DNA from: Candidatus Gastranaerophilales bacterium
GTDB taxonomy: Bacteria; Cyanobacteriota; Vampirovibrionia; Gastranaerophilales; Gastranaerophilaceae
Reading direction: 5' to 3'
Length of the DNA stretch: 64,000 nucleotides
Assembly: GCA_944322945.1 (NCBI GenBank)
Contig: CALUQN010000002.1
Span: 62,001 to 126,000 of the forward strand
Both the position numbers and the translations under genes were made by a program. Below are positions 3,932 to 61,942 of this stretch, in pieces. The notes under the pieces were generated by a model that was not told the origin of the DNA, searched no databases, and saw nothing but the letters and a program-made list of their open reading frames with translations. Numbering within the stretch: the stretch's first letter is position 1; each line of letters starts with the position of its first letter.

Positions 3932-4804
3932 GGGACATATATAGCAAACTCCACCGGTGCTATAAAAATACCTCATTCTGAGCACTCTGCCTCACAAAAC
4001 CTGACTAAATGTCTGGTTTTGTGAGAGGGCGAAGAATCTCTTTTTTTTAGTGAATAGTGAATAGCAATTAAGTGACCAGGTGACCAAGTGTTAAGTGAAC
4101 GGTCTGGCACTGCCTGTCTCTTTTCCCCTCTCCTGATTTGGAGAGGGAGAAGCCGTGCGAAACGTAAGTGAGCTACGGATTCGGGTGAGGGGGCAAACGT
4201 TACGTTTGCATCACTATTCTTTCTACAGACTGAAATACCGCCTTTTTAAAGATATTCAAGAAACTTTAAAAGTTTTTTAATAGACGGCTTTTATAACGCC
4301 CGTAAGAGCTTTTCAATATTCTCCCCTCTCCCGATTTGGAGAGGGTGGCACGTAGTGCCGGGTGAGAGGACAAACTTTCATGTTTGCTCCCCACCCTAGC
4401 CCTCCCCGACCCGGGGAGGGAATAAAGTCATTAAGCTTTTACGGACGCGACAAAAGCCGACTGTAAAAAGAATTACTAAAATTTTTTGAACATCTTCAAA
4501 AGGCGGTACTTCAGTTTGCGGAAATAGTAATGATGCAAACATAATGTTTGCTGTCATCCTGAAAGCGTAGAAAATCCGTTTTTAATTTTTGAAAAACGAG
4601 ATTTTCAAGCTGTTCAGGATCTTGCAGTGTGAAAAGCTAACGCTGGACTTTACGATGGCTGGACCTGTTGCTCCCCATCCCATCCTTTCCCGACTTGGGG
4701 AAGGAGTTTTAAACAAGTTTAGCGCGACCGCAAACATTATTTTTGCTTACGCGCAGCTGTTACTGTAGGTCAGGCAGTGCCTGACAAAAAACTATATAAG
4801 TCAC
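3931..4804. repeat. Gene-free 0.87-kb mosaic of dispersed intergenic repeats
   Basis: No credible gene. The ends look like a terminal inverted repeat: GGGGACATATATAGCAAACT at 3931 and ACTATATAAGTC at the right edge. Inside are modules found elsewhere in this window: a CATTCTGAG...GAAGAATCTC module (3973-4042); GAGAGGG palindromes with GTGAGCTACGG (4130-4192 and 4322-4370); a CCCTAGCCCTCCCCGACCCG hairpin (4388-4425), which is inverted at 15098-15132; and a CAGGATCTT...GGACTTTACGATGGCTG module (4615-4730), which recurs at 54021-54131. Segments 4191-4312 and 4431-4556 form a large imperfect inverted repeat. It appears to be repeats inserted into repeats. Confidence 0.75.
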
Positions 4805-14939: not shown

Positions 14940-15240
14940 TAATAAGGGGGCAAACATGATGTTTGGCAAACGTTACGTTTGCATCAATAGGACTATTCAT
15001 CTTTCAAAAAGTCGCCTTTCGAAGATATTCAAGAAACTTTAAAAGTCTTTTAATCGACGGCTTTTACTGTGCCCGTAAGAGCTTAATGACTTTATTCCCT
15101 CCCCGGGTCGGGGAGGGCTAGGGTGGGGAGCAATGCTAAGTCTGTCAGAGTTATAGGGTGGGCAAAGCGGACGCGTGCCCACATATTTCTTTAGCGCTTA
15201 CGCGCAGGTGTTTATGTCGGTTGGGCATACTTGCCCGACA
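14940..15240. repeat. Intergenic repeat block without genes
   Basis: No gene seen. It contains the palindromes CAAACATGATGTTTG and GCAAACGTTACGTTTGC. A module (15010-15090) nearly repeats 4240-4312, including GATATTCAAGAAACTTTAAA. The hairpin CTCCCCGGGTCGGGGAG with a GGGCTAGGGTGGGGAGCA tail is the reverse complement of 4388-4425. The final part (CTTACGCGCAGGTG, GGGCATACTTGCCC) resembles 4745-4785. Confidence 0.7.
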
Positions 15241-36858: not shown

Positions 36859-37362
36859 GCTATATAATCAAGCCGTTTTTTCTGTTTAACATCCTAATCA
36901 CGGGAATTTCAGTTTGCGAAAATAATGTTGATGCAAACATTATGTTTGCTGTCATTCTGAGCAAAGCGAAGAATCTCAATAAAAAAGAGATTCTTCACCC
37001 CTGAAATGTCGTCGGGTTCAGAATGACGACGGGGCATATTTTTCCCTCTCCCGATTTGGAGAGGGCAGAAGCCGTGCGAAACATCAGTGAGCTACGGCTT
37101 CGGGTGAGGGGGACGTCAATCATTGACAGCTCATATCTCACCCCCTCCCCCTCTCCTACTTAGGAGAGGGGAATAGTCGCTAATCTCTTACGGGCATTAT
37201 AAAAGCCGCCTATTAAAAGACTTTCAAAATTTCATGAACATATACAAAAGGCGATATTTCAGTCTGCGGAAATAATGTTGATGCAAACATCATGTTTGCT
37301 GACACTGTGAACTTAGTTTGGCTATGCTATATAGTCAAGCCGTTTTTTCTGTTTAACATCCT
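36859..37362. repeat. Repeat insertion flanked by a 37-bp direct repeat of a gene end
   Basis: 36859-36895 and 37326-37362 are identical except for one base. The right copy is the 3' coding end of the SprA-family gene, so the left copy is a duplicated gene end. Between them lie intergenic modules: two copies of GATGCAAACATNATGTTTGC (36931 and 37271), a CATTCTGAG module, GAGAGGG palindromes with GTGAGCTACGG, and an arm matching the 4240-4312 module in inverted form. Confidence 0.75.
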
Positions 37363-53889: not shown

Positions 53890-54215
53890 AAACATAATGT
53901 CATTCCGAACATCGGAATGACCTCCGTGTTTCGAAATTTTACCACCGGCAAGACACTGCGGGAAACCGGACATTTTTCACAAAATCAAAGATTTTGGAAA
54001 AAGTAGTCAACCAAGTTCAGGATCTTACCATGCGGAAAGCCAACGCAGGACTTTACGATGGCTGTACCTGTTGCTCCCCATCCCAGCCTTCCCCAAACCG
54101 GGGAAGGAGGTTTAAACAAGTTCAGGGTGATAGATTAATGAAACTGACTTAACGTCTTAACGTCCTATAGTCCTAACGTCTTTAATACCCCGTCATTCTG
54201 AGGTGTTGGACAATT
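53890..54215. repeat. Dispersed intergenic repeat block
   Basis: The 430-bp gap before the prepilin gene has no other gene. 53898-54030 (CATTCCGAACATCGGAATG, then CCGGACATTTTTCACAAAAT) is inverted at 31863-31992. 54021-54131 (GGACTTTACGATGGCTG, CCCCATCCCAGCCTTCCCC / GGGGAAGGAGG) repeats 4615-4730. A CATTCTGAG fragment is at 54189. Confidence 0.7.
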
Positions 54216-56312: not shown

Positions 56313-56504
56313 TTAATGCTTTTTGACATCTTCTTTAATGACAATAAGGTTGTTGATAATTTTCATAGCGCAGGTCGGCAGCACAACGTCATTTAAGCCG
56401 TTTGCTATGCTGATAATTTTGCCTGCCCCAAGGGTAACTTCTTCTCCTTTGTAGTGGAAAATGTAATCATCTTTTCTGTCTGAACGTATAGTTATTTTGT
56501 CCAT
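56313..56504 (-). CDS. Small 63-residue protein, unknown function
   Basis: Starts MDKITIRSDRKDDYIFHYKG, with AGGGAAT as a ribosome site. Predicted beta-rich: alternating strands DYIFHYKGEEVTL, GKIISIANG, MKIINNLIVIKED. No family recognised. It lies downstream of hisS on the same strand. Confidence 0.5.
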   Translation of the reverse strand: MDKITIRSDRKDDYIFHYKGEEVTLGAGKIISIANGLNDVVLPTCAMKIINNLIVIKEDVKKH

Positions 56505-56590
56505 TTCTATTCCCTTATAATTGTCAGTTTACGGTTAAATATTATACACTATATCTTTTGGAAATGCAAGTTTTTGCGGCAAAAGGTAGA

Positions 56591-57829
56591 TTATTTCAAG
56601 GTTTCAGCAATTTTATTTTTTGCAACTGCAACCTGTTCGCCGGTTGAGAGATTTTTAACAGAAACAGTGCCGGACTTGATTTCGTCTTCGCCTAAAATTA
56701 ATGCGTATTTTGCAACTTTTGAAGCTTTTTCTAGTTGCTTGGTGAATTTTTTGTTCGCCAGATCAAACTCTATTTTCAACCCGAGAGTTCTCAAATTTTC
56801 AGCCAGTTCAAACGCGTCAGCCGGCGAGGTAGAGACAATGTAGCCGTCAAGAAGTTCCGGCTCCGGTACAGGTAATAATGAGTTTAATCTTTCCATACCC
56901 ATAGCCCAGCCTACAGCCGGGGTATCTTCGCCGCCGAGGTTTCTGACCAGACTGTCATATCTTCCGCCTCCGCAGACTGCGTTTTGCGAGCCGAGGTTGT
57001 TGGATTTTATTTCAAAAACCGTGCGGTTGTAGTAATCCAAACCTCTTACAAGCAGTTTGTTTATGGTGTATTTTACATTAAGCTTGTCGAGGTAGCTTTT
57101 CAGCTCTTCAAAGTGGGCTGCGCATTCTTCACAGATAAAATCTGATTGTATAACTTTTTGAATTTCCGGTTTTGCAAAAATTTCTTTGCAGCTTTCGACT
57201 TTGCAATCAAGAAGTCTGAGCGGATTTTTTTCATAGCGGCTCTGGCAGTCTTCGCAAAGATTATCAAATTCAGGCTTCAGAACTTCTTTAATTTTAGATT
57301 TGTAAGCCTCGCGGCAGGTCGGGCAGCCGAGTGAGTTCAATTCAACTTCCAAGTCGCACAACCCGAGAGATTTCAGATAATTAACGGCAAGCAGAATAAC
57401 TTCAGCATCGGCGGCTGCGTTTTTAATCCCGAACATTTCAACCCCGACCTGATGAAACTGGCGTTGTCTGCCGGCTTGCGGACGTTCATAGCGGAACATG
57501 GGACCTTTGTACCATAATTTTACCGGTGCGGAGAGCCTTGCCATTCCGTTTTCAATAAACGAGCGGACGACGCCTGCTGTATTTTCCGGTCGGAGAGTCA
57601 AAGAGCGTTCGCTTTTTTCAAAGGTATACATTTCTTTGTTAACTATATCGGTTGTGTCGCCGACTCCGCGGGCAAACAGTTCAGTTGCCTCAAATATCGG
57701 GGTGCGGATTTCTTTGTAACCGTATTTTGAAAAAATTTCCAGAGCCTTGCTCTCTAATATGTGCCACTGCTCAACATCTTGTGGCAGAATATCTTTTGTT
57801 CCCTTGATTATATTAATTATCTTAGCCAT
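56591..57829 (-). CDS. hisS: Histidyl-tRNA synthetase
   Basis: 412 residues, a class II synthetase that charges tRNA-His. It has the N-terminal GTKDILPQDVEQW, motif 2 YERPQAGRQRQFHQVGVEMF, the histidine-binding LLVRGLDYYNRTVFE, motif 3 AVGWAMGMERL, and a C-terminal anticodon-binding domain. A cluster of cysteines in the insertion (CPTC, CEDC, CEEC) may bind zinc. It follows ispE at 46 bp on the same strand. Confidence 0.96.
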   Translation of the reverse strand: MAKIINIIKGTKDILPQDVEQWHILESKALEIFSKYGYKEIRTPIFEATELFARGVGDTTDIVNKEMYTFEKSERSLTLRPENTAGVVRSFIENGMARLSAPVKLWYKGPMFRYERPQAGRQRQFHQVGVEMFGIKNAAADAEVILLAVNYLKSLGLCDLEVELNSLGCPTCREAYKSKIKEVLKPEFDNLCEDCQSRYEKNPLRLLDCKVESCKEIFAKPEIQKVIQSDFICEECAAHFEELKSYLDKLNVKYTINKLLVRGLDYYNRTVFEIKSNNLGSQNAVCGGGRYDSLVRNLGGEDTPAVGWAMGMERLNSLLPVPEPELLDGYIVSTSPADAFELAENLRTLGLKIEFDLANKKFTKQLEKASKVAKYALILGEDEIKSGTVSVKNLSTGEQVAVAKNKIAETLK

Positions 57830-57875
57830 ACGGAAATTATATTAAAAGCAGGGTAGGCTGTCAACGTGATTGTAC

Positions 57876-59699
57876 TTAATTCCGGAATACAATTTCTATC
57901 CCTGTAGGTATGCTTTTGAGGTTATTTTTTACCCAGAAGTTATCCGAGTTACAAAATTCGCCGTTGATTAAAAAGCAGGTTGAACCGGAGCCTGACATAA
58001 TTGAAGAGGGATATTTATTTTTGATAGTTTGGAGTTCATTGTAGTCGTCGATAACCGCCCATTCAAGATCGTTTTGAAAATCATTGCGGCTTGCGGCGAT
58101 TGAAGCCCCCCACCTAACCTGTCTTGGATTTGCTTCACGCTCACGGAGACTCGCCTGGAAGCCCTGCGGGCTTAGCTGGCTCGTTCCGTTCGCTAACCGG
58201 ACTATCGTCCGTCCGTAAATCCGCTCCCCCGCAGAGGGGGGAGGAACCTGATGCGTGCTATCAGTTGTTGATGACTGTATAAGATTGTTTTCGGAGTTTT
58301 CCACCCCAATTAGAGGTGAAGGAATTTGTTGTTCGTTATTAGTTGTTGGCGTTTGTTTGGAATTGTTTGATGATGCTCTATTATTAAATTGCGGAACGTC
58401 GCAGTCCTCTGTTCCTCCCTTTTTTGCTTGGAATGTTGTTGGGAGCATATCATCAGATAAAGTCTGCGTTCGAACATTGCAGCTCTCTGTTCCTCCCCCC
58501 TCTGCGGGGGAGGTTAGGTGGGGGGCTATTGCCCGCTCCAAGTATTCCAAAACCCCATCTATATTTTCAAATATCTCATTGTTCCAAATTCTTATAACTT
58601 TAAAACCGTGTGATTTTAAAAATTCATCACGTTTTGCATCATATTCTATATTGTGAGTTTCATTGTGCTGCCCGCCGTCAAGCTCTATAATAATATTTTT
58701 TTCCAGGCAGGCAAAATCAACTATATAATTCCCGATAGGCTGCTGACGTCTGAATTTTAGATTATGAAATTGTTTTTTTTGTAAATAAAACCACAAAATT
58801 TTCTCGGCATCTGTCATAGATTTCCGTAATTGTTTTGCGATATTTCTGATAGATTTTTTTTCTTGCTTTGTGGTGTAGGTGTCCCCCCCACCTAGCCTCC
58901 CCCTCCGGGGGGGAGGAATTTGCTGCGTGCTATCAATTGTTGAGGACTGTATAAGATTATTTTCGGAGTTTTCCACCCCAATTAGAGGTGAAGGAATTTG
59001 TTGTTCGTTATTAGTTGTTGGTGTTTGTTTGGAATTGTTTGATGATGCTCTATTATTAAATTGCGGAACGTCAGAGTTTTCTGTTCCTCCCCCCTCTGCG
59101 GGGGAGGCTAGGTGGGGGGAAGTATTGAGTTTTGCCGAAAATTTTGTATACGCCTCTTTTGCACTAATACCTAAATTTACCGGCTTTATCAATGATACAC
59201 TAAACTCCTCAAACGGAAGCGACTCCAATATTTCCCCTCTGCCGGAAGTCTTTTGACGGCCGCCCTCCAAACAAAAATTCAAATCAGAACCAAGCTTTGC
59301 ACAAAGTTCATGCAGTTCTGCACGGCTTAGGGGCTGCTCAAAAAGTTCATTCAAACCATACAAAGTGCCTGCCGCATCAGTGCTGCCGCCTGCAAGCCCT
59401 GCCGATACCGGAATATTTTTCTCTATAAAAATTTCTATTTCCGCACTAAATCCAACCCTGTCTAAAAACAGTTTCGCTGCTTTGTATACAAGGTTTTTTT
59501 CGTTATAAGGAATTTCATCGCTGGTGCCGGAAAGTTTTATCGCTGTGTAGTCTGCCTTTTGTGCCGAGATTGTCAGGTAATCGTACAGGCTGATTGTCTG
59601 CATTACGCTGTCTATATTATGAAATCCGTCCTCACGTTTGTTCAGAACTTTTAAGGTCAGATTGATTTTTGCAGGACAGCGTAATTTAATTCTTTCCAT
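57876..59699 (-). CDS. ispE: IspE kinase interrupted by an in-frame DUF559 endonuclease element
   Basis: IspE phosphorylates 4-diphosphocytidyl-2-C-methylerythritol in the MEP route to isoprenoids. Residues 1-193 and 533-607 form one IspE: PAKINLTLKVLN, the GHMP ATP-loop PVSAGLAGGSTDAAG (97-111), and the C-terminal RNDFQNDLEWAV and SIMSGSGSTCFLI. Between them lie 338 extra residues: SPAEGGGTE-type low-complexity repeats around a Vsr-like DUF559 nuclease domain (about 282-393). The frame is open throughout, 607 residues against about 280-300 normally. The insertion follows EAYTKFSAKLN, before the C-terminal helices, where a loop could tolerate it. Whether the protein still works is unknown; the intact frame argues for it. 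It overlaps rsmA by 14 bp. Confidence 0.88.
   Translation of the reverse strand: MERIKLRCPAKINLTLKVLNKREDGFHNIDSVMQTISLYDYLTISAQKADYTAIKLSGTSDEIPYNEKNLVYKAAKLFLDRVGFSAEIEIFIEKNIPVSAGLAGGSTDAAGTLYGLNELFEQPLSRAELHELCAKLGSDLNFCLEGGRQKTSGRGEILESLPFEEFSVSLIKPVNLGISAKEAYTKFSAKLNTSPHLASPAEGGGTENSDVPQFNNRASSNNSKQTPTTNNEQQIPSPLIGVENSENNLIQSSTIDSTQQIPPPRRGRLGGGDTYTTKQEKKSIRNIAKQLRKSMTDAEKILWFYLQKKQFHNLKFRRQQPIGNYIVDFACLEKNIIIELDGGQHNETHNIEYDAKRDEFLKSHGFKVIRIWNNEIFENIDGVLEYLERAIAPHLTSPAEGGGTESCNVRTQTLSDDMLPTTFQAKKGGTEDCDVPQFNNRASSNNSKQTPTTNNEQQIPSPLIGVENSENNLIQSSTTDSTHQVPPPSAGERIYGRTIVRLANGTSQLSPQGFQASLREREANPRQVRWGASIAASRNDFQNDLEWAVIDDYNELQTIKNKYPSSIMSGSGSTCFLINGEFCNSDNFWVKNNLKSIPTGIEIVFRN
58236..58419. 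repeat. Direct repeat copy A inside the ispE element
   Basis: 184 bp, about 95% identical to 58907-59090. It includes the small palindromic piece CCACCCCAATTAGAGGTG and is bordered by GGGGGAGGAA and GTTCCTCCC. Translated in the ispE frame it gives VPQFNNRASSNNSKQTPTTN and IPSPLIGVENSENNLIQSS. Confidence 0.85.
58523..58856 (-). other. DUF559 (Vsr-like PD-(D/E)XK) endonuclease domain within the ispE frame
   Basis: Residues 282-393 of the fused protein. RKSMTDAEKILWFYLQKKQF is the usual opening of DUF559 proteins; FRRQQPIGNYIVDF and IIIELDGGQH give the likely catalytic D328, E339, D341 and H345; GFKVIRIWNNEIFENIDGVL closes the fold. All expected active-site residues are present. DUF559 proteins usually stand alone at about 110-130 residues. 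An internal ATG (M295) could start only a truncated domain, so it is probably made as part of the fusion. Confidence 0.85.
58907..59090. repeat. Direct repeat copy B inside the ispE element
   Basis: Same orientation as copy A and on the other side of the nuclease domain, in the same reading frame. Copy A and copy B differ at only a few bases, so the duplication is recent or kept alike by recombination. Confidence 0.85.
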
Positions 59700-60531
59700 T
59701 TTTCAGCTCCTCTGATAATGCGGCAAGAGTTTCTATAGAAAGTTTTTCGGCTCTTGTGTTTTCATCCAGCCCTAATTTTGACATTGCGTTTTGGATGTTT
59801 TCTTTTGAAAAACCGCCGCTCAGCAGGCAATTTTTAATGTTTTTCCGCCGCTGTGAAAACGCAGCCTTTACAGTTTTTCTAAAATGTGTGTAATCACTTA
59901 ACTCAACACGTGGTTTGTCGTTTATAACAAGCCGCACAAGCGCTGAATTTACCTTTGGTGCCGGATAGAATGCACGCCGACCCACATGTCTGAATATTTC
60001 CACATCTGCCCAAAATTGCGACAGTATTGTCAAAAGTCCGTACTGTTTGGACGGCGAATTCTCATCAGCCGCCATACGCCTTGCAACTTCTTCCTGAACC
60101 ATCAGGATAATTTCTGTTATTTTATGACGGTTTTTGTTTTCCAAGTCGTCAACCTCGCCAAGCAAATGTGCAATAATCGGGCTTGTTATGTAATAAGGAA
60201 TATTTGCGACAACTTTAACCTTGCCTTCACACAACGTTGAAATATCCGTTTTTAAAATATCATTGTGAATGATTGTCAAATTCGGAGCGTTAAGTTTTTT
60301 GAGTTCATTGACAGCTTCTTCATCAAGTTCAATTGCTATAACGTGTTTTGCATATTTAACCAGCTGTTCTGTTACAAAACCGACTCCCGGTCCTATTTCA
60401 ATAATGGTATCATCAGGTTTGATGTCAGCTTTGTCTATAATAGATTTTATCACCTCGCCGTCAATCAGAAAATTCTGTCCGAGGCGCTTTTTTGTTCTGA
60501 AAAATTTTGCTCGTTCGTAGTAGTTAACCAT
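59686..60531 (-). CDS. rsmA: 16S rRNA dimethyladenosine transferase RsmA (KsgA)
   Basis: 281 residues. It dimethylates two adjacent adenosines near the 3' end of 16S rRNA and acts as a checkpoint of 30S assembly. Visible: KKRLGQNFL at the N-terminus, SAM-binding EIGPGVG (45-51) and the catalytic NIPY motif (110-113). The C-terminal domain has FSQRRKNIKNCL. Its end overlaps the ispE start by 14 bp, the common rsmA-ispE pairing. Confidence 0.97.
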   Translation of the reverse strand: MVNYYERAKFFRTKKRLGQNFLIDGEVIKSIIDKADIKPDDTIIEIGPGVGFVTEQLVKYAKHVIAIELDEEAVNELKKLNAPNLTIIHNDILKTDISTLCEGKVKVVANIPYYITSPIIAHLLGEVDDLENKNRHKITEIILMVQEEVARRMAADENSPSKQYGLLTILSQFWADVEIFRHVGRRAFYPAPKVNSALVRLVINDKPRVELSDYTHFRKTVKAAFSQRRKNIKNCLLSGGFSKENIQNAMSKLGLDENTRAEKLSIETLAALSEELKNGKN

Positions 60532-60622
60532 GGTACATATAATAACACAGACAGGCAGATGATTGTAATATTATTTGCTGGTAGGTTAAATGATGTTATA
60601 ATGAAAACCACAAGGGGGCATC

Positions 60623-61942
60623 GTGCAAAATATCGAGACTAAGGAAAAACTTGAACGCTCAGAGATAAAAAAAATATTCACATCAGGATTTAAACCTGCA
60701 GATACACACAAAATAGGGATTGAATATGAGAGGCTGCCGATTTATACGGATACATTCAAGGCAGTACCTTACGAAGGAGGAGTTTGCAATATTTTGAGGA
60801 ATATTGCAAAAGATGATGACTGGGATTTTATCACAGACGACTTTAACATAATCGGACTAAAGCAAAACCACGATACAATTACGCTGGAGCCCGGGTGCCA
60901 GTTTGAGATGAGTCTTGAACCGCAGTTTACAATAAAAGCATTAGAGGAAAAAATTAAAACTCTGAATAAAAAAATAGCACCTGCTTTGGAACGCAGCGGC
61001 GCAGAGCTTTTGGAATACGGAGTGTCTCCGGTCTCCACACACAAGACTATTGAGCTTATCCCCAAAAAACGTTATCATATCATGGCAAGATATTTGTGGG
61101 GAATTTTGTCAGATGTTATGATGAGAGAAACCGCAGGTATTCAGTGCTGCATTGATTTTGAATCCGAAGAAGATTTGAGGAAAAAATTTGAAACAGCATC
61201 AAAATTAACGCCGTTTGTAACCGCGATGTTTGCAAATTCACCGATACGCGGCGGGGTTTACACAGGATATAAAAGTTTTCGGGCTCTCAGCTGGCTGAAC
61301 ACTGATAACGAGCGCTGCGGGTTTGCCGGTAATCTGAAAGAAAATTTTTCCATTGACGATTACATTGATTGCGTTCTGGATTCTCCGATGATTTTTATAA
61401 CCCGCCAAAACCTTCCTATACAGCTCAACGGCAGAATAACTTTCCGTGATTTTATGGAAAAAGGTTTTGAGGGCTTTGAAGCAACCATAGATGATTTTGA
61501 GCTTCATGCAAATCTTTATTTCCCGGAAGTCCGCCTCAGAAATTTCATAGAAATCCGTAACCACGACTGCGTTGGTAAAGGGCTTCAATATTCACTTCTT
61601 GCGATTTATAAAGGAATACTTTACGACAAATATGCGATTGAAGAATTTGAAGAATTGATGAAAGATTTTCGAGTGAGAGATATATCGGAATTGCGTTACA
61701 ACGTACCGAAAAGTGCTATGCAGGCAAAAGCCGGCAAATATATGGTATCAGAAATTGCTCCTAAGATTATCGAAATAGCAGAAAAAGCTCTCATCGGCGG
61801 TGATAATCATGAAGATTATTACCTTGAACCTGTAAAAGAATATGTTGAAAAGGGGATTTGTCCGGCTGACGTTATCATCCGCAACTGGCATTCAGTCTGG
61901 GATAAGGACATAAACAGGTTGATAAAATATTTGACCTCATAG
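60623..61942 (+). CDS. Glutamate-cysteine ligase family protein (GCS2/plant type)
   Basis: 439 residues from a GTG start with AGGGGG upstream. GIEYERLPIY and TLEPGCQFEMSLEP are the glutamate/ATP-binding blocks of the GCS2 family, found in Cyanobacteria, plants and EgtA proteins. RYHIMARYLWGIL and MMRETAGIQCCIDF are typical further on. It would join glutamate and cysteine for glutathione or a related thiol. No gshB is seen here. It is divergent from rsmA; a TATAAT box lies about 20 bp before the start. Confidence 0.85.
   Translation: MQNIETKEKLERSEIKKIFTSGFKPADTHKIGIEYERLPIYTDTFKAVPYEGGVCNILRNIAKDDDWDFITDDFNIIGLKQNHDTITLEPGCQFEMSLEPQFTIKALEEKIKTLNKKIAPALERSGAELLEYGVSPVSTHKTIELIPKKRYHIMARYLWGILSDVMMRETAGIQCCIDFESEEDLRKKFETASKLTPFVTAMFANSPIRGGVYTGYKSFRALSWLNTDNERCGFAGNLKENFSIDDYIDCVLDSPMIFITRQNLPIQLNGRITFRDFMEKGFEGFEATIDDFELHANLYFPEVRLRNFIEIRNHDCVGKGLQYSLLAIYKGILYDKYAIEEFEELMKDFRVRDISELRYNVPKSAMQAKAGKYMVSEIAPKIIEIAEKALIGGDNHEDYYLEPVKEYVEKGICPADVIIRNWHSVWDKDINRLIKYLTS

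Follow-up and report, generated by a model that had tools for sequence, protein, structure and literature searches.

A DUF559 nuclease gene between triplex-type palindromes inside the ispE frame of a Gastranaerophilales bacterium: a putative unspliced homing-type element

How an essential kinase gene can hold a complete endonuclease domain within its reading frame, and what kind of element such a domain might be, are the questions raised by the ispE gene of the window, the 64,000-nucleotide stretch of a Candidatus Gastranaerophilales genome analyzed here. The gene is a single ATG-started open frame of 607 aa on the minus strand (57876-59699), made up of IspE residues 1-192, an insert of about 1.0 kb with a DUF559 domain, and IspE residues 536-607. 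Residues 1-192 (59124-59699), the N-terminal three quarters of the kinase, were identified by alignment and by the NCBIfam ispE model (TIGR00154), which matched residues 3-188 with 189 bits against a cut-off of 138.7; Pfam placed GHMP_kinases_N at residues 69-146. The C-terminal quarter (57876-58094, stop codon included) restarts at about residue 536 and bears the invariant NDLE and MSGSGS motifs, the latter intact as MSGSGST. Between the two parts, Pfam located DUF559 (PF04480) at residues 284-390 (58530-58850, E=6.3e-39), with a score of 132.7 bits against a cut-off of 20.6 and a match covering positions 3-107 of the 109 in the profile.

Both components appear intact. The kinase residues common to all 28 aligned IspE proteins, fused and unfused, are found on both sides of the insert, and an alignment with 29 relatives (A2) revealed that the DUF559 domain retains its family-invariant residues, including D49, E60, D62, and H66. 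The original prediction of a complete DUF559 domain with an intact core, in frame inside a 607-residue IspE, was thus borne out by Pfam, NCBIfam and the residue alignments. Its span, 58523-58856, describes the DUF559 core well but not the whole insert, which is about three times longer and also comprises palindromes, a 184-bp duplication and a nested repeat. Over the 1016 bp of this insert (58104-59119), no stop codon occurs in the IspE frame, while the other two forward frames contain 17 and 31, and none of 20,000 shuffled inserts kept the frame open. No second ispE was found in the window genome, which is 98.6% complete, so that the prediction could not be overturned by another intact ispE beside a decayed copy at this locus. 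The sole other GHMP match in the genome is a 318-aa kinase, 32% identical, with counterparts in most relatives. The ispG gene was also found, which indicates that the MEP pathway is in use.

The insert is bounded and subdivided by triplex-type palindromes, the intrastrand triplex motifs of Holder et al. (2015), hereafter TMs, defined by a hairpin with a pyrimidine arm, a short second loop (TTA or CCG) and a purine third strand (PMC4666352). Read along the minus strand, it opens at its 5′ junction with an outer TM (59084-59119, CCCCCCACCTAGCCTCCCCCGCAGAGGGGGGAGGA), followed by the first copy of a 184-bp segment, X (58908-59091), a direct repeat 94% identical to the second copy. The TM directly 5′ of the nuclease (58884-58917) is inverted with respect to the TM directly 3′ of it (58490-58527), with 30-nt arms that are 87% complementary. 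The latter TM consists of a hairpin, a TTA second loop and the third strand GGTGGGGGG; its architecture at 58490-58524, TCCTCCCCCCTCTGCGGGGGAGG-TTA-GGTGGGGGG, meets all three parts of the definition. The second copy of X (58236-58419) precedes a closing TM whose hairpin arm (58224-58247, 24 nt, 100% complementary) is separated from its third-strand arm (58104-58120), the 3′ junction of the insert, by a dispersed repeat (58121-58223) with about ten other copies in the genome, 80-98% identical. This gives the elaborated layout TM - X - TM - DUF559 - TM - X′ - TM, with the dispersed repeat inside the last TM. As the core of segment X is absent elsewhere in the window genome, the flanks seem to have been made by local exchange between TMs.

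Three further observations concern these repeats. The nested dispersed repeat (about 58105-58230, roughly 105-130 bp) has one other copy located inside a 1570-aa frame (contig C19). Five additional TMs were detected in the window (4388-4421, 4672-4705, 15095-15128, 37136-37172 and 54075-54108), all between long ORFs; several of them resemble the termini of a free-standing DUF559 gene (G000:C22) and not the TMs of the ispE element, which suggests that TM subfamilies match nuclease lineages. Finally, Rfam returned a sub-threshold match to Chlorobi-1 RNA (E=0.15) on one palindrome (58860-58922). We took it as chance, and the Chlorobi-1 family might itself be a TM-type repeat.

DUF559 proteins are nucleases of the PD-(D/E)XK/Vsr type, and I-Bth0305I is a group I intron homing endonuclease. 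The structural model of the window DUF559 domain (pLDDT 89) had as its best PDB match 3HRL, the DUF559 structure NGO0050 from N. gonorrhoeae, followed by the catalytic domain of I-Bth0305I (3R3P, E=1.6e-4, TM-score 0.67/0.76) and then by Vsr. The domain is thus predicted to have a Vsr-like fold. In the model of the whole fusion, 260 residues drawn from both IspE parts aligned to the IspE structure 4EMD (rmsd 2.0 Å, Z 30.9), and the linkers were disordered. Foldseek reached only the N-terminal half of IspE, both halves being displayed by VIA-align. Given the disordered linkers and the alignment of both parts, the nuclease can, in this model, loop out while the kinase fold remains complete; the insert would thus leave the fold intact.

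Comparison with relatives revealed that the arrangement is not confined to the window genome. Three congeneric species also carry DUF559 at this position of IspE, in unbroken frames of 417, 445, and 445 aa, so that all four sampled species of the genus are occupied. In a second genus, G063 and G119 are occupied at this site and G092 and G138 are empty. Most other relatives encode an IspE of 262-300 aa with a linker of 25-50 aa at the insert site. The simplest insert, that of G002, measures about 460 bp and consists almost entirely of palindromes and DUF559. An arrangement common to four species, together with an empty site in relatives, excludes misassembly. Further extra sequence was seen in other IspE frames of the family: that of G063 (L107, 3657-5387) has DUF559 twice, at the internal site and again at the N-terminus, where the domain begins with an ATG of its own; the linker of G098 (L263) harbors an in-frame repeat insert like the repeats flanking DUF559 in its UvrD-like gene (L177); and those of G018 and G014 (L068, L073) have in-frame additions of another kind, close to the N-terminus and in mid-protein, that lack DUF559.

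DUF559 was surveyed in 117 genomes of the family, yielding 77 strong domain matches, about a third of them in long frames. Pfam and NCBIfam identified in-frame DUF559 in PriA (five genomes, four genera), HydE (C-terminal, five genomes), the M14 peptidase MpaA (four genomes) and a UvrD-like helicase (four genomes), as well as in PrmA and a DNA methylase. Outside the family, DUF559 was recognized from sequence, with no profile search, in the frame of isoleucyl-tRNA synthetase (IleRS) on two Rickettsiales contigs, of valyl-tRNA synthetase (ValRS) in one of the two genomes with the IleRS case, of a Prevotella UDP-galactopyranose mutase (GLF) and of a Bacteroidota HsdR-like protein. Neither of the two Rickettsiales genomes concerned yielded a second IleRS. 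The Rickettsiales loci with DUF559 in IleRS or ValRS, all from MAGs, are L186, L199, and L272. In several hosts, the elements sit in variable linkers. This recurrence led us to reject the idea of a one-off curiosity: the ispE case noticed at the outset stands, as part of a broader phenomenon that reaches many host genes and several phyla and has defined palindromic termini.

These termini were characterized across the survey. The simplest element, in PriA of G069 and G125, reads ACCCCTCACCCCAACCCTCTCCCGCAAGGGGAGAGGG - DUF559 - CCCTCTCCCCTTGCGGGAGAGGGTTGGGGTGAGGGGT, with small differences among copies. Each end of an element is a hairpin with a third purine strand, that is, a TM, with the TTA second loop in the window. 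The best inverted repeat between the 150-bp flanks scored at least 12 for 71% of the 77 DUF559 domains versus 0.35% of 287 shifted controls, and for 41% of 37 DUF559 flanks from other phyla versus 0.8% of 127 controls. A TM detector found TMs on both sides in 41 of 76 cases in the family and on one side in 13 more; in other phyla, the corresponding numbers were 14 of 35 and 13, against an expectation of about 1% per flank in both sets. In E. coli K-12, a TM-like remnant marks the 3′ end of the DUF559 gene ycjD, and a TM lies about 170 bp from that end. As judged from these sequence comparisons, the association of DUF559 with TMs holds across phyla and at ycjD. Separately, the fabI-ycjD-sapF interval of K-12 (L267, 1540-2330) was at least 80% covered in 3333 of 5426 complete E. 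coli genomes. Three of the other genomes that were examined have a TetR/RND efflux operon beside fabI, and because this operon adjoins fabI, strains lacking ycjD were rejected as simple empty sites.

Embedded and free copies differ in several respects. An ATG within 20 codons upstream was present in 1 of 26 embedded copies versus 47 of 51 free ones (Fisher p=5e-15), the latter class including domains treated as free or N-terminal; the other 25 embedded copies, that of the window included, have no translation start of their own. On the DUF559 tree, embedded copies cluster, the free/embedded label requiring 6 changes versus 23 in shuffles. The third strand of the TMs points outward in embedded copies (9:1) but mostly inward in free copies (20:5, p=2e-4), the window copy, whose nearest TMs are part of the X cassettes, having been set aside for that reason. 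This reversed orientation in free copies is a feature that a homing-type model does not explain.

Evidence on how the elements are inherited came from species pairs occupied at the same site. In three of them, the element was far less divergent at synonymous positions than its host gene: dS was 0.19 against 1.52 for priA in G000/G002 (approximate Fisher test on synonymous differences, p=6e-17), 0.065 against 1.08 for hydE in G000/G002 (p=6e-18) and 0.19 against 0.76 for ispE in G001/G003 (p=9e-7). Overall, the elements of these pairs are 95-98% identical and their host genes 82-84%, with dS of 0.07-0.19 versus 0.76-1.5. Element identity (0.952 for priA, 0.982 for hydE and 0.961 for ispE) exceeded that of every other same-size stretch of the loci, the maxima being 0.912, 0.933, and 0.938 among the 141-185 stretches compared for each pair. 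The peak is centered on the element and highest on the nuclease gene itself, with short high-identity tails, which in hydE extend as far as about 300 bp upstream. Purifying selection acts on both the host and the DUF559 parts, the nuclease showing an omega of about 0.04-0.12 in most comparisons and up to 0.25.

Other pairs behave differently. For ispE in G002/G001, hydE in G000/G003 and mpaA in G123/G098, element divergence equals or exceeds that of the host, and the element of the window's own ispE diverges from those of three sister species about as much as the host does, which indicates that much of the inheritance is vertical. Pure vertical inheritance of same-site occupancy was nevertheless insufficient for the three pairs described above. 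Strong constraint at the DNA level was likewise rejected as the reason for low element divergence, since at these sites other pairs approach saturation. Transfer is also suggested by PriA: its elements form one clade (99/88) on the DUF559 tree, yet on the PriA tree the occupied genes lie dispersed (5 changes for 5 rows, not below the number in shuffles), and the G125 element groups with that of G000/G002 (99/93), whereas the host tree places G069 nearer (92/91). Some empty PriA genes contain in-frame scars, ACCCCTCACCCTGCCC in G078 and a solo TM in G100, and DUF559 presence is patchy within genera. No obvious target-site duplication was seen at the PriA or IspE junctions, which are hypervariable linkers, and no fixed DNA target was evident, the PriA insertion point varying by several codons within its variable linker. 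Taken on sequence evidence, three species pairs show transfer of the element from one orthologous site to another, accompanied by short flanking tracts, a homing-like signature. For any single pair, ordinary recombination that overwrote an older element copy instead of filling an empty site is not excluded. The view of the DUF559 domain as a selfish nuclease in an essential gene gained support from the element-centered transfer at three host sites and from the scattered PriA occupancy.

Based on these data, we consider it probable that the insert is an unspliced, co-translated element of the homing type, with DUF559 located between inverted TMs; cleavage, expression, kinase activity and mobility are all inferred. 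In the proposed mechanism, a Vsr-like DUF559 endonuclease gene with inverted TM ends would have adapted to unspliced life in housekeeping frames, where the nuclease would be made as part of the host enzyme. Once DNA of another species enters the cell, the nuclease may cut the element-free allele, or a palindrome, and repair would then copy the element in together with short flanking tracts. As the palindromes are stop-free in the frame used, insertion would produce a loop and not a null allele, and IspE may still fold and work with the nuclease looped out. The essentiality of the host would in turn guard the element against frameshifts, stop mutations and imprecise loss. Element-centered tracts in all three recent cases, the almost complete loss of start codons and the retention of invariant residues together make a homing element the best fit. 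The broader proposition, that DUF559 proteins are the mobilizing enzymes of widespread bacterial TM repeats and that one of their branches now lives as an obligate in-frame parasite of essential proteins, never spliced, which spreads between species by homing into linkers of kinases, helicases and aminoacyl-tRNA synthetases, could equally prove right or wrong.

Movement might instead be driven by the palindromes, the TMs being prone to recombination or slippage and exchanged between genomes with DUF559 as cargo between two copies. TM loci in E. coli are indeed prone to rearrangement (PMC4666352), TMs without DUF559 exist, including the five others in the window, which are all intergenic, and within the genus, the TMs flanking the ispE copy have themselves undergone exchange or expansion from one species to another. 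Cargo would decay, however, and the nuclease is under strong purifying selection with its invariant residues kept; DUF559 moreover lies between TMs far more often than expected, and it is over the nuclease gene that the high-identity tract reaches its maximum. We therefore regard this reading as unlikely. Ordinary domain fusion, in which DUF559 was captured once per gene and retained for the benefit of the host, for instance as a nuclease at a repair helicase, would suit those hosts that are DNA enzymes (PriA, the UvrD-like helicase, the HsdR-like protein and the DNA methylase), and it agrees with purifying selection on both parts and with the share of vertical inheritance. It seems to us quite improbable, as IspE, HydE, the M14 peptidase, PrmA, IleRS, ValRS and GLF share no need for a nuclease, presence is patchy within genera, in three pairs the elements are much more recent than the genes that hold them, and a palindromic terminus is found at each end.

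Group I introns are known to carry Vsr-like nucleases, I-Bth0305I being an example, and the insert could in principle be removed at the protein or RNA level as a cryptic intein or a group I/II intron. Against this, the Pfam scan of the 607-aa protein detected no intein/Hint family at E≤0.01, in agreement with the original prediction that the element is not an intein, and the Rfam cmscan of 56500-61000 detected no group I or II intron down to E=1. The G002 insert, little more than palindromes and DUF559, also speaks against splicing, as does the fact that both junctions are in frame, and we give this reading very little credence. An assembly artefact or decaying pseudogene could be suspected in a genome fragmented into 35 contigs, and it was foreseen that relatives might expose a misassembly. 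The relatives did the opposite: the insert recurs in other species beside relatives with a clean empty site, the frames are open in four species with strong purifying selection and intact invariant residues, and there is no second ispE. The comparative data already refute an artefact, and this possibility can be virtually dismissed. The unspliced homing-type element remains the reading that we favor.

Several known systems resemble such an element in part. As summarized in a review (PMC10969869), Rickettsia palindromic elements (RPE; Ogata 2000, 2002) are likewise palindromic selfish DNA translated in frame within unrelated housekeeping genes, of about 150 bp and encoding a short conserved peptide, with no nuclease described there. 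The ispE-type element differs from the RPEs of that review by its own nuclease, by its larger size (about 1 kb here, about 0.45 kb in its simplest relative) and by horizontal same-site transfer. The TMs share with those of E. coli (Holder et al. 2015, PMC4666352) a CCCTCTCCC-type hairpin, a TTA second loop and a GGGTGAGGG-type third strand, but E. coli TMs are described as always intergenic, with no mobility functions nearby, whereas the TMs of the present element flank a nuclease gene and form part of a translated frame. The free-standing nucleases mobE in Aeh1 nrdA and mobA in T4 gene 60 also represent unspliced nuclease genes in important genes whose function is retained, as shown for the split Aeh1 nrdA (PMC2988022); there, however, host and nuclease are distinct proteins and the host itself is split into separate polypeptides, while here a single polypeptide includes a nuclease without a start codon.

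The EDxHD/Vsr-like homing endonucleases (I-Bth0305I, 3R3P; Vsr, 1VSR) have in common with the element the predicted nuclease fold and homing-like inheritance, but in ispE no intron is involved and the nuclease is fused to the host protein. Inteins are in-frame endonuclease elements of essential proteins that also home, but the DUF559 insert has no splicing domains and thus presumably stays in the protein. RAYTs are HUH enzymes. REP/REPIN sequences with their RAYTs are similar in that dispersed, inverted-paired palindromes are tied to a nuclease gene, except that the linked enzyme here is DUF559 and not an HUH Y1 transposase. In the accessible portion of the literature, mostly open-access papers, no account was found of DUF559 inside other genes, in frame or between TMs, and searches on Gastranaerophilales and palindromic repeats gave only unrelated papers. 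The element acts like a homing endonuclease gene but fails defining features of each named subtype, which makes it, as far as that literature goes, a variant not previously described. Selfish DNA thus seems to persist within essential genes in a manner not yet described, and this is possibly a categorically new class if DUF559 proves to mobilize TM repeats.

As ycjD of E. coli K-12 lies beside a TM, the idea is testable in that strain. It also calls for caution in annotation pipelines, in which such genes may be called fused or broken. Selfish nucleases in essential genes have been thought to need splicing, as inteins and introns do, or splitting of the gene; staying in the protein would be a third route, and it would account for nuclease domains without functional sense in some essential enzymes.
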